From assembly GCA_028821475.1 (NCBI GenBank), contig JAPPGB010000032.1, forward strand, positions 62,001 to 126,000: DNA of 64,000 bases. The letters are read 5' to 3'. This DNA comes from Spirochaetaceae bacterium (GTDB lineage: Bacteria; Spirochaetota; Spirochaetia; SZUA-6; Bin103). The notes beneath the pieces are model-generated. The model did not search any database. It saw only the letters and a list, made by a program, of their open reading frames with translations, and had not been told where the DNA came from. A program made the translations under genes and the position numbers. Numbering within the stretch: the stretch's first letter is position 1; each line of letters starts with the position of its first letter. Below, one piece after another: positions 2,091 to 46,920 of this stretch.

Positions 2091-2642
2091 GACTCCCGAG
2101 ACTCGTGGTTGCCCTCGGGGCGCCGAGTGAGGCGGTGGCCGGCATGGTACGTGGGTGGCAGGCAGCGGTGACGAGGCTGAGTGCCGCGACCACGAGTACC
2201 ACTGGCCGCTGACGCTACGGGCTCCGAGTCCTCCAGTCAAGCTCTCGCGTCGACGAGCCGCCAAGCGGCGCGCTTGCCTGACCGCGACTACGTTCCGGTC
2301 AGCGACTCAGCCGCACCACGACGGGCGGTGCGGAACCGCACGCCCGTCGTGCTGCTGGTTGCACTCCGCCGCCCTTGAGTCGCAGAGTGAACCTCCGGGG
2401 AGTAGCTATCAATACTAACGGGACGAATGTCAGCCGCGTTTCACTCGCTGGACCGGTCGAAGCTCATACAGGAGGCGCGAGTGTGACGCGATGGCCGAAA
2501 TCACGAGCGCCCGGCGTCGGCATCCAGTCAATAACGACCGGAGCGTCCTCGGGTAGCAGTCCGGCGATGCCTCGTCGGTCCCGCTTGCCGCTCGGAGTCT
2601 TCATCCTTCACGGGAATCTGGTGAGGAAATCAATGACTTTCA
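2010..2642. other. No recognisable gene
   Basis: The first 70 bases are the upstream region shared by the two coiled-coil genes (compare 4195-4265) and may hold their promoter. The remainder shows no frame with protein-like composition on either strand. Confidence 0.4.
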
Positions 2643-3662
2643 CTGCGTGAATACCGCGACTACGAAGACCTACTCCTTCAGGATCCAGAGGTATACTTGG
2701 ATCTGGAGATATCGGAGAATCCGATCTACCAGTTTCGTAGCTATAAGCTCTACTTTGACATGTTTGGACACTGTGAAGCGCGCGAGGGTGTTGCCGCGGC
2801 TGGACGATGGAATGCCTTTACCGCCGCCGTCTTGGCGAGTGACATGGTCGGTAATGCTGTATATGAAGTATGGCATTCGAGCATTGATTCCTATGTGGCG
2901 GCTGCGTTGGCGTCGTGCGCCGAACCAGTCCAACTGAGCGTCTGGGTTCATCGTTCGGAGTTGCTCGGCGATTACGCCAACCCACCCCTCTGGGAGTGGA
3001 GTTTGGGCGCGGGCGCCCGGGTCGCAGTCTTGGAGGCGTCATTCGACGGTGGGCCGTATCGACCCCTGCATCCATCGACACGGGCGTTTCGCCCGTCACG
3101 CCCTCTCGCGCCGGGAATTCACAAGCTCTCGGTCCGCGTGAGGACGGCGGGCGCATTCCCTTCGACGGCTGAGTCAGCCGCGGTGGCGCGCGTAGTGGAA
3201 ATGCCGGGTGTGCAACCGGTTCCCGACGATCCGTGCTATGCGCCGGGGGCGAACCGGTCCGGGTGTGGCAGAGTAGACTCCGGCCAGTGGCCACTGCGGC
3301 AGATACGGTTGCCGCTGTTGTGGCAGGCGATGGCAGCGGGAGTCTTGCACGAGCCCGACCCAGTCACCGTCGCGGTGCTCGACACCGGATACGTGCCGCA
3401 TCCGGACCTCGCCGACAACCTGCTCGTCGCCGACGGCTACGACTTCATCAGCGATGGGGACGCGTCCGGTGACGGCGACGGCACCGATCGCGATGCGACC
3501 GATCGCGGGATTGACGGTTCCTGGCATGGCACGGCGATTGCGGGGGTAATCGCGGCATTGACCGACAACGGCACAGGTGTGGCCGGTATGGGATGGCCCT
3601 GGGACCGCTCTCCGGTCACGATCATGCCGGTCCGAGTCGCCGGGCGGGGATCCTTCGAGTGA
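2643..3662 (+). pseudogene. Subtilisin-like (S8) protease, N-terminal part, truncated
   Basis: The open frame runs from about 2643 with protein-like sequence upstream of the first possible start (TTG 2697). Counted from the TTG, an unrecognised N-terminal region (1-80) is followed by an Ig-like beta segment (about 90-165) and the start of an S8 domain. That domain carries the catalytic Asp in VAVLDTG (Asp229) and the His in WHGTAIAG (His277). After IMPVRVAG the frame meets a deletion and stops at 3662. Bases 3645-3760 keep only scraps of the C-terminal half, including an in-place deletion of the Ser region. The missing half survives in the fragment at 736-1618, so recombination could in principle restore a gene. 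No clear signal peptide is visible. Confidence 0.7.
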
Positions 3663-4260
3663 GATCCCGGCACCCGGCGTGGGACATGGCTCGTTGGATT
3701 GTGCGTCCTGACCACGGAACCTCAGGCTGCGGCGATTGGACCGGGGCGAGCGGGCCGTAACGCGCCGGCCGACGGCGCTGGCGGTACTCCGGCTACGGGA
3801 TGAGGGCCGCCATTACGCGCTGCAGGATCGGGATCAACACCGCCGCGCCACCCAATACGGCGAGAATCCAGCGTGTCTGGACAGTGATTTCCTTGCGGAC
3901 GTCGGCGATCTCCTTGCGGACGTCGGTGATTTCCTTGCCGAGATCTACCCTCACCGCGGCGATCTCCTTGCCGAGATCCACCCTTACCGCGACGATCTCC
4001 GCGTTCGTTCGCTGTTCCGACTCCGCCACGTGACGCAGAAATCGCTCCTCCAGAACCTGGAGCAGTTGCTCCTTCTGCACTTCGCGCCGCTCTTCCTGAT
4101 CCGATTCGATCTGGCGCAGCATCTCGACCAACGACTCGGTCGCTGCTTCTCCGAGGCGCTCCTGCAACGGACGTGGCACCGACAGTACTGCCATGACTCA
4201 AGCTACCCGCCTGCGACGGTAGCGGGATTCGGCGACGATTGTCCATCACTCGCCCGGTAG
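3527..4260. repeat. Duplicated segment, copy 2
   Basis: This is the counterpart of 769-2090. It joins the protease His region to the coiled-coil gene through two deletions, at about 3643 and 3722 (VRVAG joined to the GGATCC stretch, then GGAACCTC joined to GGCTGCGGCG). Confidence 0.7.
3793..4194 (-). CDS. Coiled-coil protein with C-terminal membrane anchor, copy 2
   Basis: This 133-residue paralogue of the protein at 1608-2009 has the same N-terminus (MAVLSVPRPLQERLGEAATE), the same charged helix and the same C-terminal membrane helix. The central blocks differ: two consecutive VRVDLGKEI units are followed by two DVRKE units, while copy 1 alternates them. The function is unknown. The equal length despite reshuffled repeats argues for selection on coiled-coil length. 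It lies on the strand opposite the decayed protease and is probably transcribed alone. Confidence 0.7.
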   Translation of the reverse strand: MAVLSVPRPLQERLGEAATESLVEMLRQIESDQEERREVQKEQLLQVLEERFLRHVAESEQRTNAEIVAVRVDLGKEIAAVRVDLGKEITDVRKEIADVRKEITVQTRWILAVLGGAAVLIPILQRVMAALIP

Positions 4261-35462: not shown

Positions 35463-35888
35463 TCATCCCTCGGCGCTGCGCGGCAGCACCAGCGTCAGGC
35501 GGTTCCTGCCCTCCTCGTAGCGGTAGCGCACGTCGTCGACCAGCGTACGCACCAAGTGCACGCCCACGCCCCCGATACGCCGCTCGTCGATCGACAGGTC
35601 GGCATCGAATTCGGGCGCTTCCTGCAGCGGATCGAACCGCGGGCCGTCATCGACCAGCTCGACGGTGACTGCGTTCGGCGTCGAACCGAGGATCACGTCG
35701 AGGTGGCGCGCGCCGCCGTCGCGTCCATGGGTCATGACGTTGAGCGCCAACTCCTCCAACACCAGGTTCACCTGGAACAGCAGCTTGGGTGCCCAGTCGT
35801 CCCGCTCTGCCATCTCCTCCACGGCCTCGACAACCCGGTGCAACTCCTCGGGCCGCGCGTCAAGCTGCAGGTGCACGGCTTGGCTCAC
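35463..35888 (-). CDS. Anti-sigma-type serine kinase (RsbW/SpoIIAB-like)
   Basis: This 141-residue single HATPase domain has the N-box LVLEELALNVMTHG with the Mg-binding Asn, a G1 box VDDGPRFDP and a G2 box GGVGVHLVRTL. Family members phosphorylate a STAS antagonist and bind a sigma factor. The STAS gene precedes it on the same strand by 108 bases, and a PP2C phosphatase lies further upstream, so all parts of a partner-switching module are present. No sigma factor gene is nearby, so the final target is unknown. The start is GTG at 35888. Confidence 0.9.
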   Translation of the reverse strand: MSQAVHLQLDARPEELHRVVEAVEEMAERDDWAPKLLFQVNLVLEELALNVMTHGRDGGARHLDVILGSTPNAVTVELVDDGPRFDPLQEAPEFDADLSIDERRIGGVGVHLVRTLVDDVRYRYEEGRNRLTLVLPRSAEG

Positions 35889-35996: not shown

Positions 35997-36338
35997 CTAG
36001 CCGGCTGCGACCGCCGCCACCGCGGCCGACTCGGAGTCGTGCACCGGTATGATCCGGTCGAACCCGCTGATCTCGAATACCTCGCGGATCGACTCGGTAA
36101 GCTCGCAGAGCGCGAACTTGGTGCCGCGCTTTTGCAGCATCCTCGCGACCATCAACATTACCCGCAGCCCCGAACTGCTGATATAGGACAGCTGCTTCAG
36201 TTGCAGGACCACCGCACGGTCGCCCTCGTCGATGACCCCTTCAAGGGCTTGCTGAAACTCCTGCGAATTGCTGCCGTCGACCCGCCCGGCGGCTGTTACG
36301 ATCAGAGTATCTCCCTGTCGTTCCTCTGAGATATTCAT
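35997..36338 (-). CDS. STAS-domain anti-sigma factor antagonist
   Basis: This 113-residue STAS domain has the phosphorylatable serine in the YISSSGLRVMLM loop, preceded by the strand AVVLQLKQL. Family members are released by dephosphorylation and sequester the cognate kinase/anti-sigma factor. It sits between the SpoIIE-type phosphatase and the RsbW-like kinase. The C-terminal ESAAVAAVAAG is low-complexity. Confidence 0.9.
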   Translation of the reverse strand: MNISEERQGDTLIVTAAGRVDGSNSQEFQQALEGVIDEGDRAVVLQLKQLSYISSSGLRVMLMVARMLQKRGTKFALCELTESIREVFEISGFDRIIPVHDSESAAVAAVAAG

Positions 36339-36465: not shown

Positions 36466-38982
36466 TCATGCCGCGATCCGTTTTCTCATGACCAACCGAT
36501 TGCGCCCGCCAATCACCAGGTAGTCTGCATCGTCCACCTGTGCAGGGCGCGCGATCTGGGTTCCGGTGCGGCTGATGTAGCGTCCGTCGCCGCCCTCGTG
36601 GTCGGGCGGCGGATCCACGAGCGTATACGGCTGGCCGTCGTCGTCGAGGGCGATTTCCACGACGCCGTCTTCCAGGCTGAGCCTGATGTCGATCTCGTAG
36701 GTGCTGCCGGCCGGCAGCCGGAAGTCGATGGTGGTGGTAAGCACGTCGGCGATGGCGATCTGCACGTGGCGCGTATCCGAGCCGTCCATGCCGCACTGCC
36801 GCGCGAACGTCTCGACGCCCTGCGCAATGCGCGGGATCTCGGCCAGATCGTTGCGCAGGGAGAGCCGGTGCACGACCATGGAGTCCGTCTTGTCCTGGCG
36901 GCTGAGCACGAGCATCGCGATGTCGTCGAACTGCGTCGCCTCGCCCGCGAACGCCTCTACGCCGCGCAGCATGGCCTCGATGGTGTCGTTGGGGCTGCGG
37001 TCGGCATTGGCAAGCAGGTTCTCGCGCATCCGGTCGTAGCCGAACTCCTCTTCGCGCAGGTCGGTGGACTCCGGAACCCCGTCGGTATACAGGAACAGCT
37101 TCCCCTGCGGCGGCAGCACCACCTCGCCGTCGTCATAGGTCAACCCATCGAACATGGCCAACGCCACGCCGCCGGTCAGCGGCAGCAGGTCGGCCCGCCC
37201 GGGAGCGACCAGCACCGGCGGGTTGTGACCGCCGTTGGCATAGCGCAGAGTGCCGTCGCGCCGGTCGAAGATGCCGTAGAACACGGTTACGAACACATCC
37301 TCGCGAGACGCGTCGGCGAGCGTGTCGTTGACCATCTCCAGGCACTTGCCCGGTCCGTCCAGAACGTAGCGCGCGGTGGCGCGGATCACGGTCCGGGTAA
37401 CCGCCATGAACAGGGACGCCGGCACTCCCTTGCCGACGACATCGCCGATCACGATGCCGATGCGATCGTCGTCGAGGGGGAAGAAGTCGTAGAAGTCGCC
37501 GCCCACCTCCCTGGCCGTCTGCATGGCCGCATGAATGTGGGCGCCGTCGGTGTCGAGGCGTTCGCCGGGCAGGAACGAGCGCTGTACGCGGGTGGCGACC
37601 TGCAGATCGTGCTGCAGCGCCAGGTACGCGGTCTGCGTGCGCAGCGCCTCCTGCAATTCGGCCACCAGCTTGCGCAGCCGTTCCTGCTGCACACCGACGC
37701 GGTCGGCCATCTTCTGGAACGCGAACCCCATCATCTGCAGGTCGCCGGCCATTTCCAGGTCGGATTGCACGTCGGTCTGTTCGTCCGCGGCGGCTTCCTC
37801 GGGAACCTCGATCTCGGCCAGGTCGCTGAGGATGTCCTGGCGCTCCTCCTCGTCGAGCGTGGTCGCCAGGCGCGTCATCTCGCCGCGAATGAAGCGCCCC
37901 TCCTGGCGCTGCCGCCTGATCGCGCGGCGGCGATGACGGCGCAGGGTGAGCGTCTGGTTGCGGAACGTATTGACCGCCTGCGCGATGCGCGCCAGTTCGT
38001 CGTTGCCCTGCTCGCCGCTGATCTTCACCGTGGCCTGGGTGTCGCCGCGCGACAGGGCGTCGAGAACCTGCACGCCTTCGATCAGCGGCGACAGCGCGCG
38101 GCGCAGATAGTAGGAGAGCGCCAGCAGGGATACCAGCAGGAAGCCGCCGATCGCCAGAAAGGTGATCATGCTCACCTCGCGCTGGCCGGCGAACGCGGCG
38201 CTCACGTCGCGCACCGTCACCACGCTCGCAACCAGGTTGCCGAGCGACGCCTCCAGCGGAAATGCGGCGATCGAGAACACGCGGTCGTCGAAACGCAGCA
38301 CTTGCGAGGCGCCGTCGCGGACGCGTGCCGTACCGCCGACCAGGTCCCAAACCTGCTCGTCGGTGCCTGCCATCAGGCGGCCGCGCCGGTTCACGATCAG
38401 CACTTCCGATCCGGAATCGTCCCTCAGTTCGCGTAGCGAGAAGCCGATGTCGGAGGCGCAGATGGCAATCGCCAACAGTGCGCCGTCTTCGCGGTACAGC
38501 GGGACGCCGACCGACAGCGTGATGTTGCGCTCGGCGTCGATCGCCACCCCGCTGCTGCCGCTGCCGGCGGCGATCATGGCGGCGATCGCATCGTCGCTCG
38601 CGGCCGCGGTCGGCTCGAACGCCGGCACCGACGAATACAGCACCTCGCGCGACCGGGACACGATATCGAGCCGGGTAACGTCCCGGTTGCGCTGCAGCGT
38701 GGCCAGGGTGCGCCGTGCGGCACCGGAGACGAGCCCGCGGTCGCCGCTGATAATGGCGTCGCGCAGGTTGCCGTCCTCGGCGACCAACGGCGTGACCTCG
38801 CGGATCCGCTGCAGCCCGGTTTCGACGATCTTGCCCCAGAGGGCGCGGCTGCCATTGATCTCCGTCGCCTCCAGTTGGAGGCGCAGCAGGTTCTCCCGCT
38901 GATAGCCGGCGAACAGCAGTCCGGCGACCATGACGGCCAGGAAGGCGACGACGATGATGCCGATGCGTGTCTTGATTCCCAC
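36466..38982 (-). CDS. Cache-HAMP-PP2C (SpoIIE-type) phosphatase with degenerate kinase-like tail
   Basis: In this 838-residue membrane protein, TM1 (8-27) and TM2 (272-293) enclose a periplasmic Cache-like sensor. HAMP (294-346), a charged linker with a second HAMP-like helix pair (about 405-450), and a SpoIIE-type PP2C domain (about 455-695) follow. The PP2C metal sites appear in EVGGDFYDF, GDVVGKGVPA and QFDDIAML. Residues 705-838 look like a HATPase_c_2 domain in which the N-box is IADVLTTTID, lacking the essential Asn, so it is probably inactive. GTG 38982 follows the previous stop by 5 bases. It should dephosphorylate the STAS protein encoded next. The open frame upstream of 38982 belongs to another phase of the preceding gene. 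Confidence 0.9.
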   Translation of the reverse strand: MGIKTRIGIIVVAFLAVMVAGLLFAGYQRENLLRLQLEATEINGSRALWGKIVETGLQRIREVTPLVAEDGNLRDAIISGDRGLVSGAARRTLATLQRNRDVTRLDIVSRSREVLYSSVPAFEPTAAASDDAIAAMIAAGSGSSGVAIDAERNITLSVGVPLYREDGALLAIAICASDIGFSLRELRDDSGSEVLIVNRRGRLMAGTDEQVWDLVGGTARVRDGASQVLRFDDRVFSIAAFPLEASLGNLVASVVTVRDVSAAFAGQREVSMITFLAIGGFLLVSLLALSYYLRRALSPLIEGVQVLDALSRGDTQATVKISGEQGNDELARIAQAVNTFRNQTLTLRRHRRRAIRRQRQEGRFIRGEMTRLATTLDEEERQDILSDLAEIEVPEEAAADEQTDVQSDLEMAGDLQMMGFAFQKMADRVGVQQERLRKLVAELQEALRTQTAYLALQHDLQVATRVQRSFLPGERLDTDGAHIHAAMQTAREVGGDFYDFFPLDDDRIGIVIGDVVGKGVPASLFMAVTRTVIRATARYVLDGPGKCLEMVNDTLADASREDVFVTVFYGIFDRRDGTLRYANGGHNPPVLVAPGRADLLPLTGGVALAMFDGLTYDDGEVVLPPQGKLFLYTDGVPESTDLREEEFGYDRMRENLLANADRSPNDTIEAMLRGVEAFAGEATQFDDIAMLVLSRQDKTDSMVVHRLSLRNDLAEIPRIAQGVETFARQCGMDGSDTRHVQIAIADVLTTTIDFRLPAGSTYEIDIRLSLEDGVVEIALDDDGQPYTLVDPPPDHEGGDGRYISRTGTQIARPAQVDDADYLVIGGRNRLVMRKRIAA

Positions 38983-38987
38983 CGCGG

Positions 38988-40037
38988 TTACTCGACCACC
39001 TGCGCGACGCGCAACAGGCCCATCGGTGGATAGATGCCCAGTTGCAGGGCCACCGGCATGCGCAGGAGGATCGCGAACCGCGCCAGCGATGCCACCGGGA
39101 TCTCCTGCGGCGGTTCGCCGCCCACCAGGATGCGCTCTGCCTGCGCCCCGGCCAGCTTGCCGATCAGGTAGTAGCGGCTGACCAGGCCGAGCATTGCGCG
39201 CGAGCGTTCGAAACTCGCTTCGACGGCGGCGAACGACGGGATGCCCTGCTGCGCCGCGCGCTCGCTGACCTGCAGACTGTGGACCGTGATGAACGAGTCC
39301 GGGCCCATGTACAGGAACTCGGCGCCGCTGCGCACCAGGTCGTCGACCAGCTCGTCCAGGCGGGTGGCGTCGGGTCTGCCCTCCGCGTTCAGCGGAACCG
39401 GGTATTCCAGCAGCTTGATGTCGCGATCGCCGGTCTCCGTGCGCAACTGATCGACGTTGGTCACCGAGTTGCGCTCCAGCGGGTTGTAGATCACGCCGAG
39501 CGTGCCGATCGGGCGGTAAGCGAGGATGGTGTCGAGCTGCGTGCTGATGGGCGTCAGGAATATGCTGCCGGTGAGCGGCCGTCCGGGGGCCTCGAACTCC
39601 TTGACGATCTTGTCCTGCACCGGGTAGGAGACGATCGAGAACACGCCGGGAATGTCGCCGATGTGCATGCCCGGCTCGGCGCCGGTGTGCGGGCCGAAAA
39701 TACCGAGCGCTACCGAGGTGCCGAAGGTATGAACCAGGTCCGGCTTTTCGGCGCGTATCTCGGCGGCGAACTCCGGGAGCCTGGCGCGGTTCCGATCGGC
39801 ATTGCGCAGGGTGTAGCGCACCGGTATTCCGCGTTCGTACATGTGGGCGCGAAAGCCGTGCTCCACGTCGGTCTCGCCTCGCCAGACCACCAGGTAGACG
39901 TGGAACGCGCCGCCGGCGGACTGCGCGGCGCCGTGACCGGCCGCGGCGAACAGCAGCGCGGCGAGGAACGCGACCGCAAGCGGAAAGCGCGGCACCGCGT
40001 ACCGGGAGCGCGGCTCCGCGCGCGGGATGCGCGTCAC
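38988..40037 (-). CDS. Periplasmic binding protein (ABC_sub_bind family), likely sensor subunit
   Basis: This 349-residue protein has a signal peptide (FPLAVAFLAALLFAAAGHGAAQ). The fold is type-1 periplasmic: FHVYLVVWRGETDVEHGF, then ADRNRARLPEFAAEIRAEKPDLVHTFGTSVA, and IGTLGVIYNPLERNS as the hinge strand. This is the family commonly encoded beside Cache/HAMP signalling proteins. No permease or ATPase is nearby. The gene overlaps the HAMP-MFS stop (ATGA) and is followed after 5 bases by the phosphatase. It therefore probably passes ligand information to the phosphatase sensor domain rather than importing a solute. Confidence 0.85.
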   Translation of the reverse strand: MTRIPRAEPRSRYAVPRFPLAVAFLAALLFAAAGHGAAQSAGGAFHVYLVVWRGETDVEHGFRAHMYERGIPVRYTLRNADRNRARLPEFAAEIRAEKPDLVHTFGTSVALGIFGPHTGAEPGMHIGDIPGVFSIVSYPVQDKIVKEFEAPGRPLTGSIFLTPISTQLDTILAYRPIGTLGVIYNPLERNSVTNVDQLRTETGDRDIKLLEYPVPLNAEGRPDATRLDELVDDLVRSGAEFLYMGPDSFITVHSLQVSERAAQQGIPSFAAVEASFERSRAMLGLVSRYYLIGKLAGAQAERILVGGEPPQEIPVASLARFAILLRMPVALQLGIYPPMGLLRVAQVVE

Positions 40038-42187
40038 GCCGACACCCGCCCGGTACCGATCCGGGCGTCCGCAGGTTCGCCCAGTCGTTCGCGGGGGTGC
40101 CCGCCCCGATCACGGGGGTGCCCGCCCCGATCACGGGGGTGCCCGCCGAACAGCGTATAGCAGACCGTGCAGGCAAACACCAGCACGCCGACGATGAGCA
40201 TGCCCTGGCCGTAGCCGACGAAGGTGACGACGGCCCCTACCGCCAGCGCGCCGGCCGCGGTGCCGATGCGCTCGATGGTGCGGAACGCGCCCACGATCGC
40301 ACCGGGTCCCAGGCCGAAGCTCCTGCCGCGTTCGGCGATTCTCTGCACGACCGCGAGTTGCGGAGCGGTGGTCAGCGCCTGCCCGGTGCCCAGCACGGCG
40401 GCGGCGGCGACCACCCCCGCCGTGGACCCGACAAGCGTCGGCAACAGGCACCCGAGCCCGCTCATCAGCCCGCCGAAGATGATGAAGGTGCGCGGCCGTC
40501 CGCTCCGGTCGGAGCCGCTCGCGGCCAGCGGCGTGATCGCTATGCAGGCGATGCCGAACACCATCAACACGCGCCCGATGTTCGACTGCGTGTTGCCCAG
40601 GTCGGCAAGGAACAGCGGCAGCAGGAAGAAGTACAGGCCGCTGAGGATCAGCTTGTTGGGCACCGCCGAGAACAGCGTCAGCACCACGAACTCGCGTTGC
40701 GAGAACACGCGCCGCCAACTGCGCATCGACTGCAGGCGCGGCCGTCGCTCCGTCTGCGAGTCGCGGTCCACCGCGATCAGCGCCGCTCCGGCGGCAAACA
40801 CGGCCATCGCGGCGGCAACGAGGAGCGTGTTTCTATAGCCGAGGCGGTCGGCGAGGATGCCGCCCATTGCCGGACCGCAGACGAATGCCGCGAAGAACGC
40901 GCCGGTGAAGCCGGTCATGCCGACGGCACGGCGCGACGCCTCCGCGTGGTGGGCGACGTAGGTCTGGGCGGCGATGAAAATGGTTCCGTAGCCGAGGCCG
41001 GCAAGTGTCCACCACAGCAGCGCCTCGACGATGGTGGTCGACAGGGCCGCTCCGACGTGACCGGCGACCGACGGCACGATGCCCAGGATGAACAACGACC
41101 GGGGGCCGAGCGTGTCGGTGATCGCACCGGCGATCGGCGTGGCGAGCAGCACCACCACCATGAAGGTCGTGAACGGCAGGCCGATGGTGAGCTCGCGGCT
41201 CAGGTTGCCGATCGGCGTATACACGTCGCCGAAGAACAGCGGCAGGAAGGGACGGGAGAGTTCCTGCGCCAGCATGAACAGGAACAGCGGAATGCGCACG
41301 TCCATCGGTGAACGGGGCACGACGGTCCGTTCGAGGCCCGGGGTAGTAAAGCGGAATCGCTCCCCGAGGCCGGTCACCACGTCTCGTATTCGCTGCTGAA
41401 TGGTGCGGTCGATCTGCACGGCGCGTGCGTCCTCGGCCTCCTCGGTCAACATGGCGAAGGCCGTGTTGACACGCTGCACGACCGAGTTGTAGGCACGCGC
41501 GACGTGGCCCACTTCGTCCCGCCTGCGCAACCCGATCCGGTACAGGAAGTCGCCCTTCGCGCCGCGGACGATCAGGCGGTCGGCCAGTCTGATGGGACCG
41601 GAAATGCGTACCACGACAAACGCCACCAGCAACTCTATGCCGATCAGCAGGGTGACCAGGAACGCGGTCACGATGTCGAACCGCAAGCCGGCCAACTCCG
41701 ACCGCACGGCGCCCTCGCGCACATCGACGTGCAGGAATCCCACCGTTGCGCCGCGCGCCACGATCGGCAACTGGAGGGAATCCGCGGCGCGCGTCGAAGC
41801 GGCCCGCGTTCCCTGCGTATAGAGTTCGGCGCCGTCGCGGGCCGACACTCCGACGTAGGTGAAGTCGGGATTGCGGATCAGAACGCCCTGCAGGAATTCG
41901 TCCATGCCGACGAGCGCTTGCAACGGTATGCCGAGCGCGACGGCGTAGCTGATCTGCTCGGTGGCGAGGCCGCCGGCCACCTCGGCCTTGCGATGGATTT
42001 CGGGGAGCAGCGAGTCTTCGAAGGAAATTGCCAGGACGTAGGAAACGACACCCTGGGCAAGGAGCAGCAGTACCGCGGTCAACGCGGCAAGGCGCAGGAT
42101 CACGCCGCGAAAGAGCCGCTGTTCGTCGGCGGGCGCGCCGCGCGCTGCCTCCTCGTCGGGTCTCGGATCTATCGGTGCATCACTCAT
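40034..42187 (-). CDS. Sensor-HAMP domain fused to a major facilitator transporter
   Basis: This 717-residue fusion starts with TM1 (about 29-50), a periplasmic Cache-like segment (51-168, with DFTYVGVSARDGAELY), TM2 (171-194), and HAMP (195-247, GPIRLADRLIVRGAKGDF and DEVGHVARAYNSVV). A 12-helix MFS domain follows (about 298-690). MFS features are the loop ITDTLGPRSLF and the helix pair around VGMTGFTGAFFAAFVCGPAMGG. The tail has a repeated GGHPRDR motif. I know of no standard role for such a fusion; it could be a transporter whose activity is set by its own sensor, or a receptor using a transporter fold. It overlaps both neighbours by 4 bases. Confidence 0.88.
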   Translation of the reverse strand: MSDAPIDPRPDEEAARGAPADEQRLFRGVILRLAALTAVLLLLAQGVVSYVLAISFEDSLLPEIHRKAEVAGGLATEQISYAVALGIPLQALVGMDEFLQGVLIRNPDFTYVGVSARDGAELYTQGTRAASTRAADSLQLPIVARGATVGFLHVDVREGAVRSELAGLRFDIVTAFLVTLLIGIELLVAFVVVRISGPIRLADRLIVRGAKGDFLYRIGLRRRDEVGHVARAYNSVVQRVNTAFAMLTEEAEDARAVQIDRTIQQRIRDVVTGLGERFRFTTPGLERTVVPRSPMDVRIPLFLFMLAQELSRPFLPLFFGDVYTPIGNLSRELTIGLPFTTFMVVVLLATPIAGAITDTLGPRSLFILGIVPSVAGHVGAALSTTIVEALLWWTLAGLGYGTIFIAAQTYVAHHAEASRRAVGMTGFTGAFFAAFVCGPAMGGILADRLGYRNTLLVAAAMAVFAAGAALIAVDRDSQTERRPRLQSMRSWRRVFSQREFVVLTLFSAVPNKLILSGLYFFLLPLFLADLGNTQSNIGRVLMVFGIACIAITPLAASGSDRSGRPRTFIIFGGLMSGLGCLLPTLVGSTAGVVAAAAVLGTGQALTTAPQLAVVQRIAERGRSFGLGPGAIVGAFRTIERIGTAAGALAVGAVVTFVGYGQGMLIVGVLVFACTVCYTLFGGHPRDRGGHPRDRGGHPRERLGEPADARIGTGRVSA
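40092..40147 (-). repeat. 21-bp tandem repeat at the HAMP-MFS C-terminus
   Basis: About 2.7 identical units encode GGHPRDR, GGHPRDR, GGHPRER, just before the C-terminal end of the fusion protein. Confidence 0.9.
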
Positions 42188-43008
42188 GAGTCAGCGGGGT
42201 CGCTCGGTGGCAGCGAAGGCGACGAAGATCGACTGGTGACCACGCGCGAGGCGTGCGGCTCGGCCTCGATCCGGCGGATTTCCCTAGTGGCCTGAACGAC
42301 CGCCTCGCACGCCTCGTCGGCGGTCCGGGCAAGGTCCGCCGCCGACGGATCATGCCCCGCCTCGCGCTCCTTTCCCGAATCTTCGAGGGTGACCCGAATC
42401 AGCTGCAGGCGCTGGCGCAGCCGGCTGGTCAGGAGCACGGCCAGCACCGTGCCGGTGAGTGAGACGAGCACCACCGTGGCGGCGCACAGTCCGGCGATGC
42501 GCACCGCCATGGCGCGCACCTCGCGGTCGAACGCGGCGCGCGAATAGCGCAGCGCAAGCGCGCCGACCGCACGCCCGAGAACGTCGTGTACGCGTACGCC
42601 GACGACGTGGGCGTCATGCTCGATCCTGGTCCACACGGGCTGATCGGGGTCCTTCCACGCGGCCGCCCATTCCGTCGACACCAGGTCGCCGCGCAGGCTC
42701 TCGTCGGAGCTGTACAGAACCGTGCCCTGTTCGTCGAACATCTCGATCGACAGCACTCCCGGATCGCGCAGCGTCCGGGCCTGCAGATCCGCGTTGACGC
42801 CGGGCAGCGAGTCGACGGCGAGGCCGAGGGACAGCGAAGCCTCGATCGAGTGGCCAACGTCCTGCAGTACCAGTGCGTGGCGGTCGCGCAGCAGGTCGGA
42901 CAGGTACTTGCGGTACTTGTAGTGGTTCATCAGTCCGGTCAGGGACACCGCGAGCGTGAGGATGAGAAAGATGTTGACCGACACGCGGGCCGGGAGATTG
43001 AAAAACAT
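42184..43008 (-). CDS. Membrane sensor with periplasmic domain and HAMP-like tail
   Basis: This 274-residue protein has TM1 (about 9-27), a periplasmic region of roughly 140 residues containing SIEMFDEQGTVLYSSDESLRGD (a Cache/PAS-like sensor strand set), TM2 (170-192), and a short cytoplasmic helix that could be HAMP. No catalytic output domain follows, so it must act through a partner. GGAGGAG lies 9 bases before the ATG. It overlaps the HAMP-MFS gene by 4 bases and follows amt by 49 bases on the same strand, so an amt-sensor link is possible. The tail (SRSSSPSLPPSDPADS) is low-complexity. Confidence 0.8.
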   Translation of the reverse strand: MFFNLPARVSVNIFLILTLAVSLTGLMNHYKYRKYLSDLLRDRHALVLQDVGHSIEASLSLGLAVDSLPGVNADLQARTLRDPGVLSIEMFDEQGTVLYSSDESLRGDLVSTEWAAAWKDPDQPVWTRIEHDAHVVGVRVHDVLGRAVGALALRYSRAAFDREVRAMAVRIAGLCAATVVLVSLTGTVLAVLLTSRLRQRLQLIRVTLEDSGKEREAGHDPSAADLARTADEACEAVVQATREIRRIEAEPHASRVVTSRSSSPSLPPSDPADS

Positions 43009-43057: not shown

Positions 43058-44443
43058 TCAATCCTCGTCGTCGTCCTCTTCCGGCATCAGCACGAATTCC
43101 GGATAGGCGTCGATCTTCAGCTCCGCCGTATCCTGACCCATGCGCTCCACGTTCTTGGTGACCCGCACCGTGAGCAGCACGTCGATCAGCTTCCAGGCCG
43201 CGTACGACAGCACGAACACGAAGGCGCCGACCGCCAGTATCCCGACGAGTTGCACGCCGAAGCTGGCGCCGCCGGCGATGCACACCGCCAAGGTGCCCCA
43301 GACGCCGCAGATCAGGTGGGCGGGAACCGCTCCCACCACGTCGTCGATCTTCATCTTCTCCAGCGTCTTGATGCCCAGGGTGCACAGGAAACCGCCCACG
43401 GCGCCGATGATCACCGCCCACAGGTGCTGCGTGATGTCGGGTCCGGCCGTGATCGAGACCAGCCCGGCTATGGCGCCGTTGAGCGCGGCGAACATGTCGG
43501 TGCGGCCGAGGAGCCAGCGCGAACAGGCGAGCGCGGTGATCACGCCGGCGGCCGCGGCCAGGTTGGTGTTCACCATCACGTTGCTCATCGCCACCGCGTC
43601 GAGCGCGGAGCCGAGAGCGAGCTGCGAACCGCCGTTGAACCCGAACCAGCCGAGCCACAGGATGAACACCCCGAGCGTCACCAGCACGACGTTGGAGGGC
43701 GGCGTGGGCCGTACGGAGCCGTCCTTGCGGAACTTGCCGAGCCGCGGGCCGACCACCAGCACGCCTGCCAGGGCCGCCCAGCCACCGGTGCCGTGCACGA
43801 TGGTGGAACCGGCAAAGTCCTTGAAGCCCATGCCGGCGAGCCAGCCGCCGCCCCAGGTCCACGCCCCGACCACCGGATAGATGATCGCCGTCAGGATCGC
43901 CGTGAACACGAAGAACGACCACATCTTGACCCGCTCGGCGAGGGCGCCCGAGACGATCGACGCGGCCGTGGCCACGAACACCATCTGGAAGAACCAGTCC
44001 GACATGACCGCGTAGCCGCTGTCGACCACCGCCGCGGTCGCCGCGGCATCGCCGCCGAGCAACGCCAGCTCGTCCGCGGACGGGCCGTACAGCAGCTTGA
44101 ACGTGCCGATGAAGCCGCCCACGTCGACGTACATCAGGTTATAGCCGAGCAGGTAGTACGCCAGCCCGGCGATCGAGTACAGGCCGATGTTCTTCAGGCA
44201 GATGACGGAGGCGTTCTTGGTGCGCACCGAGCCTGCCTCCAGCATCGTGAAACCGGCAGCCATCCACATGACCAGCGCGCCCCACACCAGGAACGAGAAC
44301 GTGTTGAACACGAACAGCGTTTCCTCGTCCACCGCGGCGTAGGCGAGCGACGCGCCGCCGAACAGCAGGCCGAGCACCAGGAGGGCCCGCGGTGCCGACA
44401 GCGCCGGGCGCCCGGAAAGCAGGTCACCAAGTCGTCGAATCAT
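43058..44443 (-). CDS. amt: Ammonium transporter (Amt family)
   Basis: This 461-residue channel for ammonium has a signal-like N-terminal helix (ALLVLGLLFGGASLAYA), then 11 predicted helices. Hallmarks are FVATAASIVSGALAERVK, the pore His regions GSTIVHGTGGWAAL and GAVPAHLICGVWG, and ILWLGWFGFNGGS. The C-terminal tail ends in an acidic EEDDDED run. ATG 44443 is chosen for the signal helix and AAGGAG 11 bases upstream. The frame extends further upstream without family similarity. No glnK is adjacent. It may share a transcript with the signalling operon 49 bases downstream. Confidence 0.93.
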   Translation of the reverse strand: MIRRLGDLLSGRPALSAPRALLVLGLLFGGASLAYAAVDEETLFVFNTFSFLVWGALVMWMAAGFTMLEAGSVRTKNASVICLKNIGLYSIAGLAYYLLGYNLMYVDVGGFIGTFKLLYGPSADELALLGGDAAATAAVVDSGYAVMSDWFFQMVFVATAASIVSGALAERVKMWSFFVFTAILTAIIYPVVGAWTWGGGWLAGMGFKDFAGSTIVHGTGGWAALAGVLVVGPRLGKFRKDGSVRPTPPSNVVLVTLGVFILWLGWFGFNGGSQLALGSALDAVAMSNVMVNTNLAAAAGVITALACSRWLLGRTDMFAALNGAIAGLVSITAGPDITQHLWAVIIGAVGGFLCTLGIKTLEKMKIDDVVGAVPAHLICGVWGTLAVCIAGGASFGVQLVGILAVGAFVFVLSYAAWKLIDVLLTVRVTKNVERMGQDTAELKIDAYPEFVLMPEEDDDED

Positions 44444-45488: not shown

Positions 45489-45621
45489 ACCGCGTTGTGG
45501 GTGATCGCGTTGTGGGTGCGGCTGATTCGTCGGATCGGTCCGATCGGTTGGTGGCGCCGGGCGGCGGAGCCGCTGAGCGCCTGCGTGTGGCGGCTACTTG
45601 CACGGCCGCACGGTCGCCGCG

Positions 45622-46920
45622 ATGATGAACGGCATGTCAGCTAGGCGCACCGAGCGGGCCTGGGTGCTGTACGACGTGGCGAACTCGGCGTACGCGCTGA
45701 TGGTGACCACCGCCATCTTCCCGCTGTTCTACAAGAACGTTATCGCGGCGGATGTGCCGGGCGCGGTTTCGACGGCGCGGCTGGCGTTCGCGAGCAGCGC
45801 GTTCACGCTGGTGGTCGCCGTCCTGGCGACCGCGCTCGGTCCGATGGCCGACTACGAGGGGCGCAAGAAGCGATTCTTCGCCGGCTTCTTCGGGCTTGGC
45901 GTGGCCGCCACCGCGGTGCTGGCGTTCGTGCCCGCCGGGCGCGAGTTCGCGGTGCTGGCCGTGTACGGGTTGTCCGCGGTCGGATTCGCGGCCGCCAACG
46001 TGTTCTACGATTCGTTTCTGACCGACGTGACCACCCCGGAGCGCATGGACCGCGTGTCGTCGGCCGGCTATGCATGGGGCTACGTCGGCTCGACGGTGCC
46101 GTTCGTGGCGGCGATGGCGCTGATCAACCTCGCTCCGGGCGCGGGACTGCTGTCCACCGAGGCGACGGTGCGCATCGCGATTCTCATTGCAGCCGGCTGG
46201 TGGGTGGCGTTCACGGTGCCGCTGTTCCGCTCCGTGCGCCAGGTGCACTTCGTGGCGGCGGCCGGGCCGGCGCTGCGCGACCTGGTGCGCGACAGCGTGC
46301 GGCGGGTGGCGGCGGTGGTGCGCGACGTGCGCGGCCACCGGGCGGTGTTCCTGTTCCTGGGCGCCTACTTCTTCTACATCGACGGCGTCGGCACGGTGAT
46401 CAAGCTGGCCACCGCCTACGGCACCGACCTGGGCCTGTCCGCGCAGACGTTGCTGATGATGCTGCTCGTGGTGCAGTTGGTGGCGTTCCCGTGCGCGTTG
46501 ATCTACGGACGGTTGGCGGAGCGGCGCCCGGGGGCGACCCGGACCCTGCTCCTGGTGGGAATCGGCATCTATACCGTGATCACGGTGATGGCGTTCGTGA
46601 TCTGGCGGTTGCCGGAGCCGGCGCGGGTGCCGGTGTTCTGGCTGCTGTCGATGCTGGTGGCCAGCTCCCAGGGCGGCGTCCAGGCGCTGTCGCGCTCGTT
46701 CTACGCGGGATTGATACCGGCCAACTCGTCGGCCGAGTTCTTCGGCTTCTACAACATCTTCGGCAAGTTCGCGGCGATCATGGGACCGGCTTTGGTGGGC
46801 GCGTTCGCCGCGCTGACCGGCGACTCCAGCATCGGCGTGCTGAGCATCTCGGTGCTGTTCGTGGTGGGCGGCATCCTGTTGACCCGGGTACCGGACGGGA
46901 CGCCGCGCGCGGTGCGCTGA
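45622..46920 (+). CDS. UMF1-family (Atg22-like) MFS transporter
   Basis: This membrane protein of about 432 residues has 12 helices. The N-terminal block WVLYDVANSAYALMVTTAIFPLFYKNV and the loop GPMADYEGRKKRFF are typical of the UMF1 group, as is LTDVTTPERMDRVSSAGYAWGYVGS. Substrates are not established for bacterial members. ATG 45622 is chosen over the earlier TTG (45598); a third ATG at 45634 is also possible. The 109 bases before it contain a 13-base direct repeat (CGCGTTGTGGGTG). Its stop is 31 bases from the prpD stop on the opposite strand. Confidence 0.88.
   Translation: MMNGMSARRTERAWVLYDVANSAYALMVTTAIFPLFYKNVIAADVPGAVSTARLAFASSAFTLVVAVLATALGPMADYEGRKKRFFAGFFGLGVAATAVLAFVPAGREFAVLAVYGLSAVGFAAANVFYDSFLTDVTTPERMDRVSSAGYAWGYVGSTVPFVAAMALINLAPGAGLLSTEATVRIAILIAAGWWVAFTVPLFRSVRQVHFVAAAGPALRDLVRDSVRRVAAVVRDVRGHRAVFLFLGAYFFYIDGVGTVIKLATAYGTDLGLSAQTLLMMLLVVQLVAFPCALIYGRLAERRPGATRTLLLVGIGIYTVITVMAFVIWRLPEPARVPVFWLLSMLVASSQGGVQALSRSFYAGLIPANSSAEFFGFYNIFGKFAAIMGPALVGAFAALTGDSSIGVLSISVLFVVGGILLTRVPDGTPRAVR

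Follow-up and report, generated by a model that had tools for sequence, protein, structure and literature searches.

Transporter-like proteins act as receptors in UhpC-UhpB and in Snf3/Rgt2, and UhpC and Snf3/Rgt2 are both MFS proteins. UhpC-UhpB and transceptors such as Snf3/Rgt2 are named in the literature (PMC8871633), and the same source describes CbrA/CrbS, where a single chain contains an SLC5 transporter and a histidine kinase, and notes debate over what the transporter contributes to sensing. In the GlnH-GlnX-PknG system of Corynebacterium (PMC9769921), Ser/Thr phosphorylation is controlled by a solute-binding protein (SBP) together with a membrane protein that has four TM helices and two periplasmic domains, and SBPs also activate sensor kinases such as AgtS/AruS (PMC11113362). 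Switches comprising a PP2C-type phosphatase, a kinase, and a STAS-like protein are found in the SiaABC threonine-phosphorylation pathway (PMC7647112) and in Rsb/SpoIIA.

Here we describe an operon of a Spirochaetaceae MAG that can be compared with each of these systems. Like CbrA/CrbS, it places a full secondary transporter and a signaling protein in one chain, but CbrA/CrbS has the SLC5 fold and a histidine kinase output, whereas the set studied here has an MFS domain, an SBP, a Cache partner, and a PP2C phosphatase or cyclase; the Pfam matches of the fusion protein are to the MFS and HAMP families only, and the SLC5 domain and histidine kinase core of the CbrA type are absent. The proposed use of a transporter-like protein as receptor is shared with UhpC-UhpB and Snf3/Rgt2, which nevertheless lack a fused Cache-HAMP part and an SBP and have other outputs. 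GlnH-GlnX-PknG resembles it in combining an SBP and a membrane protein bearing periplasmic domains with a Ser/Thr phosphorylation output, but that system has no transporter domain, GlnX is modeled as all-helical, and the output is the kinase PknG. In AgtS/AruS, too, an SBP gene adjoins a membrane sensor, although there the output is a histidine kinase and no MFS protein is present. The phosphatase, kinase, and STAS protein resemble those of SiaABC and Rsb/SpoIIA, and we know of no SBP, sensor, or MFS protein belonging to those switches. In none of these nearest systems is an SBP combined with paired Cache sensors and an MFS domain. A preliminary description of this DNA had taken the architecture to be undescribed, and in the open-licence PMC papers searched we likewise found no description of a HAMP-MFS protein or of the three-gene set, although an earlier account elsewhere is possible. 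The system would belong with already known transporter-coupled signaling, and the combination of an SBP, a Cache sensor, and a Cache-HAMP-MFS protein looks undescribed.

RESULTS

Organization of the operon

The analyzed stretch of 64,000 nucleotides (hereafter the window) carries all of the genes named in the preliminary description on its minus strand, between positions 43008 and 35463 (Table 1). Open reading frames, profile searches, and a structural model bear out the operon as it had been described, with sensor, HAMP-MFS, SBP, and PP2C genes accompanied by STAS and kinase genes. The sensor and MFS genes, and likewise the MFS and SBP genes, overlap by 4 nt; the PP2C gene starts ∼5 nt past the SBP stop codon, and gaps of 127 bp and 108 bp separate PP2C from STAS and STAS from the HATPase gene, respectively.

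Table 1. Features of the operon and its upstream neighbor (window positions).
Feature	Position	Strand	Basis
Ammonium transporter AmtB	43058..44443	-	Start from comparison with L043
Sensor, 274 aa; two TM helices flanking one Cache-type periplasmic domain, no output domain	42184..43008	-	Includes homology to fusion N terminus
Cache-HAMP-MFS fusion, 717 aa	40034..42187	-	Profile match, AlphaFold2 model, structural alignment
Fusion, Cache alpha/beta core (residues 95-156)	41720..41905	-	AlphaFold2 model
Fusion, HAMP-type helices (about residues 195-256)	41420..41605	-	Pfam HAMP 21.9 bits, below cut-off; model
Fusion, 12-helix MFS domain (residues 294-681)	40145..41308	-	Profile, model, structural alignment
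Periplasmic SBP (PF04392), 349 aa, no adjoining ABC genes	38988..40037	-	
Cache-HAMP-PP2C (SpoIIE) phosphatase; start revised, probably GTG at 38982	36466..38982	-	Start from comparison with the relative L043
PP2C C-terminal HATPase-like domain, N-box Asn lost	36595..36855	-	
STAS anti-sigma-antagonist-type protein with ISSSGLR site	35997..36338	-	
RsbW/SpoIIAB-like kinase (HATPase_c_2), N and G boxes intact	35463..35888	-	

The phosphatase matched SpoIIE with an E value of 1e-46, together with sub-threshold matches to dCache and HAMP. Its PP2C Asp motifs are intact, as are the serine-containing STAS site and the kinase boxes, which is the motif complement of an Rsb/SpoIIA-type partner switch; the additional HATPase-like domain on the phosphatase is probably inactive, judging from its N box. 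The phosphatase scored 59.6 bits against the NCBIfam equivalog for SiaA (cut-off, 700) and so falls outside that family. The preliminary description had also suggested a sigma or other target of the switch. For a sigma target there is no support so far: the operon itself carries no sigma gene, on which ground we set sigma control aside, and the six Sigma70_r2 matches of the assembly all lie on other contigs.

The fusion protein and its sensor partner

The fusion is a member of the MFS by its match to Pfam MFS_1 (E value of 1e-38; 133.6 bits against a cut-off of 33.4), and its HAMP segment, with a sub-threshold Pfam score (cut-off, 25), appears as HAMP-type helices in an AlphaFold2 model (pLDDT, 87.6; pTM, 0.84; alignment of 54 sequences). 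In this model a long first helix is followed by the Cache strands (residues 95 to 156), a second TM helix leading into the HAMP-type helices (158 to 256), and then 12 MFS helices (294 to 681), in line with the 12-helix transporter first proposed. The helix count rests on AlphaFold2, since averaged hydropathy split the MFS part into fragments that could not be counted. A structure search restricted to the MFS part aligned it to solved MFS chains, including VMAT, SotB, and NorA, with Z scores of about 38 to 43 (VIA-align); it is closest to DHA1-type antiporters and lies nearest to exporters. The possibility of an artefact or an isolated fusion was rejected, as about 70 homologues have an uninterrupted frame and the genome scan described below recovered fused homologues in several bacterial classes. 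Among named relatives, "Spirochaetaceae bacterium bin103" is the closest, with a fusion protein that is 91% identical. The fusion gene ends in a short tandem repeat (∼3 copies; about 40085 to 40148), which adds a PRDRGGHPRDRGG tail that is missing in this 91%-identical relative (L010/L043).

The sensor displays two hydrophobic peaks and only a weak dCache match (E value of 0.011); in a profile comparison it aligned to the N terminus of the fusion over 234 columns (98.2%; E value of 4.6e-14). Sensor and MFS form a single protein in at least 12 loci, nine of them spirochaetal (L123 to L127, L160, and L164 to L166) and the others (L103, L118, and L122) from a Desulfobacteraceae MAG and from records titled Uliginosibacterium and Roseateles. 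Two further spirochaete proteins of ∼1,000 aa (L162 and L163) were left out of this count, their long N termini not being recognized as sensors. In an AlphaFold2 model of the L118 protein, a pair of Cache modules precedes the MFS. None of the sensor-MFS fused forms examined has the HAMP segment, which is therefore not essential.

Family spread and conserved gene order

A scan of one genome per species recovered 103 related stretches; we kept 80 of them and counted gene order for the 68 Cache-HAMP-MFS genes that they contain (Proteobacteria and Spirochaetota). Of these 68 loci, 66 have the sensor directly upstream of the fusion (overlapping it by 4 nt in 52 loci) and 58 have the SBP directly downstream; because this order recurs in most of the 68 homologous loci, it exceeds what chance would produce. 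Hosts of the family are Spirochaetota, Alphaproteobacteria, and Gammaproteobacteria, and within the Spirochaetia 14 of 297 genomes match at an E value of 1e-40 or better. The window clade groups with Proteobacterial PP2C-type loci (SH-aLRT, 91) and not with other spirochaetes, which suggests horizontal transfer, tentatively so given the long branches.

Eight Azospirillum loci encode a related MFS protein that lacks the Cache-HAMP part, and the sensor and SBP genes are absent from them too; hydrolase/phosphatase neighbors are kept wherever the contig reaches that far. Because all three are jointly absent there, the sensor, the Cache-HAMP part, and the SBP appear to go together. The Azospirillum state is likely, on an unrooted tree, to be a loss. 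From the gene neighborhoods, the conserved unit is the trio of sensor, Cache-HAMP-MFS, and SBP, with the PP2C switch as one of several companions. One locus (L050, 14858 to 17664) carries a second, very divergent sensor and Cache-HAMP-MFS pair on its opposite strand.

Companion effectors of the trio

A PP2C gene is present in 25 of the 92 loci on the tree, 22 of which also have a HATPase kinase. In 10 of the 12 other spirochaete loci the same neighborhood contains a class III cyclase with HAMP and/or Cache, and L118 and L122 share a divergent gene of one family that in L118 encodes a Ser/Thr kinase-dCache-HAMP protein. The trio occurs with T6SS genes (Hcp, VipA, TssA, VgrG, and PAAR) in 27 loci, and no PP2C gene lies within the fetched stretches of these; Azospirillum canadense has a PP2C homologue ∼16 kb from the trio, and a profile search of extended flanks in three other T6SS-type genomes found no clear Cache-HAMP effector. 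Effector labels cluster strongly on the tree (12 changes versus a shuffled mean of 49), and since the PP2C and T6SS associations each require several changes, neither is the accident of a single lineage. The preliminary picture of a transporter-sensor feeding a phosphatase switch therefore holds insofar as the operon is real but is too narrow, since class III cyclases, a Ser/Thr kinase, and T6SS operons also accompany the trio. A single gene of L080 (15433 to 17127) encodes both the HATPase kinase and a weak guanylate-cyclase-like domain; in L082 (15273 to 16978) the two are encoded by neighboring genes.

The binding protein and clues to its ligand

The SBP matched PF04392 with 71.7 bits (cut-off, 25.9; E value of 8e-20) and scored 72.3 bits against the NCBIfam equivalog for the tryptophan-binding protein TrpX, short of its cut-off of 390. 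We rejected an ABC importer because permease and ATPase genes are absent from the operon in a Pfam scan. Relatives of the SBP include 3LKV, 6HNI, and 3LFT, for which bound Phe, Tyr, and Trp have been reported (PMC6816091); comparison with these aromatic-amino-acid SBPs showed conservation in general terms. Among the 92 loci, enzyme genes near the trio encode GNAT (35 loci), ATP-grasp (16), and alanine racemase (12) proteins, which recur beside the trio in Alphaproteobacteria, and spirochaete loci have Orr-type racemase and D-Ala-D-Ala-ligase-like genes nearby; no enzymes of the racemase, ATP-grasp, or GNAT type are encoded in the window operon or in the stretches of the T6SS-type loci. Our best guess is that the ligand would be an amino acid, with a D-form or a dipeptide among the possibilities. 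Two spirochaete loci have a tandem double SBP (L165, 4179 to 6560; L166, 3948 to 6332); in L165 a lysine--tRNA ligase gene (2510 to 4168) lies between the SBP and the cyclase, and a similar-looking gene occupies the matching position in L166 (2230 to 3927).

Conserved MFS residues and stripped paralogues

DHA1-type proton antiporters are marked by an acidic residue in TM1 and an Arg in motif B. In our MFS alignment E309, K512, R636, and R640 are retained throughout or nearly so, and E308 and R393 are retained in 68 and 69 of 72 aligned homologues, respectively. The window protein lacks both antiporter marks, with Gln replacing the TM1 acid E308 and Trp replacing the motif-B R393, and this combination is found only in the window and its two nearest relatives, where it may alter or abolish proton coupling. 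Flux sensing, raised in the preliminary description, is not supported so far, and the window clade is missing these two otherwise near-invariant TM residues; its other suggestion, that the complex measures a ligand, is plausible.

Rhizobiales encode a second set of sensor, Cache-MFS, and PP2C in which the MFS part lacks most of the conserved (charged) residues and, in the one member scanned, has no Pfam match. In Azorhizobium/Xanthobacter the paralogue's MFS is gone, and the sensor, Cache part, and PP2C remain. The transporter thus seems dispensable in the Rhizobiales paralogue, where signaling to PP2C would have no need of transport.

DISCUSSION

We lean toward reading the SBP, sensor, and fusion as one inner-membrane receptor-transporter that sets an interchangeable effector, which in the window would be a PP2C phosphatase acting on the STAS protein. 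In the periplasm, the SBP would bind a small ligand, probably an amino-acid-like one, and dock on the Cache domains that sensor and fusion contribute as a pair; this docking and the state of the MFS domain attached to the fusion would jointly shift the sensor/HAMP helix bundle. The MFS domain may move the ligand in most lineages or, perhaps in the window clade, only report on it. Judging from the conserved neighborhood, the shift would act on an adjoining effector equipped with its own Cache and/or HAMP module. In the window the Cache-HAMP-PP2C protein would dephosphorylate STAS and the RsbW-like kinase would rephosphorylate it, so that the partner switch is set on a target. Support comes from the order of the sensor and SBP genes, the homology of sensor and fusion, the natural sensor-MFS fusions, the joint absence of sensor, Cache-HAMP part, and SBP in the Azospirillum loci, the different enzymes with Cache and/or HAMP near the trio, the Rhizobiales sets with a stripped or missing MFS, and the intact PP2C, kinase, and STAS motifs; we counted against it the 27 T6SS-type loci whose stretches lack PP2C, and the HAMP-less fusions.

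Neighborhood establishes association and not the direction of control, and the MFS could be an output rather than an input. The SBP and paired Cache domains would then sense a ligand outside and HAMP would relay the signal to open or close an exporter or importer, the PP2C switch being separate and co-regulated by the same cue. That an output domain normally follows HAMP, where here the MFS stands, speaks for such gating, as do the kinship to DHA1-type antiporters with charged TM residues kept in nearly all homologues and the lone Azospirillum MFS, which has the same hydrolase/phosphatase neighbors, as expected for a working transporter. We nonetheless consider it possible but doubtful, and favor the receptor-transporter over it, chiefly for the recurrence of Cache/HAMP effectors near the trio and for the MFS-degenerate and MFS-less versions that adjoin the phosphatase, the Rhizobial paralogue next to PP2C having kept its Cache part and lost MFS residues or the whole MFS. 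The sensor-MFS forms without HAMP and the loss of the TM1 acid and motif-B Arg in the window clade also weigh against gating.

In TRAP systems SBPs deliver ligand to a secondary transporter, and the sensor and Cache part might similarly be a mere docking platform that hands the SBP-bound ligand to the MFS, with unrelated signaling neighbors. An SBP without ABC partners does adjoin the MFS in most loci, and the SBP comes and goes together with the Cache part; we judge such delivery unlikely, however, given the signaling effectors beside the trio in distant clades, the MFS-less and MFS-degenerate versions with PP2C, and an MFS nearest to exporters. Cell-to-cell signaling, in which an amino-acid-derived signal would be produced by the neighboring racemase, ATP-grasp, and GNAT enzymes, exported by the MFS, and read back by the SBP and Cache domains, would fit the exporter-like MFS, the enzyme gene counts given above, and the racemase and ligase-like genes of spirochaete loci, but strikes us as very improbable when the window operon and the T6SS-type stretches have no such enzymes. 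A broader proposal is an undescribed class of transporter-coupled receptors in several bacterial classes, whose complex of SBP, Cache sensor, and Cache-HAMP-MFS would export and read an amino-acid-derived signal from neighboring racemase, ligase, and acetyltransferase genes and would control plug-in outputs, be it a PP2C partner switch, a cyclic nucleotide, a Ser/Thr kinase, or a T6SS operon. We regard it as a long shot.

If the receptor-transporter reading is true, a secondary transporter would itself belong to the sensing apparatus of a modular receptor whose output enzyme can be exchanged, and an amino-acid-type cue would be linked to partner switching, to class III cyclases, and possibly to type VI secretion. 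A direct test of signaling by substrate movement versus binding would then be at hand, since phosphatases of one kind occur naturally with an MFS that is intact, stripped, or missing altogether.

Genes flanking the operon

The AmtB gene lies 49 bp upstream of the window operon on the same strand and is a possible member of it. An Atg22-like MFS gene lies near the operon on the plus strand (45598 to 46920), and we saw no tie between it and the finding. An ammonium transporter gene adjoins the operon in the window's genus (43058 to 44443) and, independently, in a Defluviicoccus MAG (L047, 13537 to 14988).
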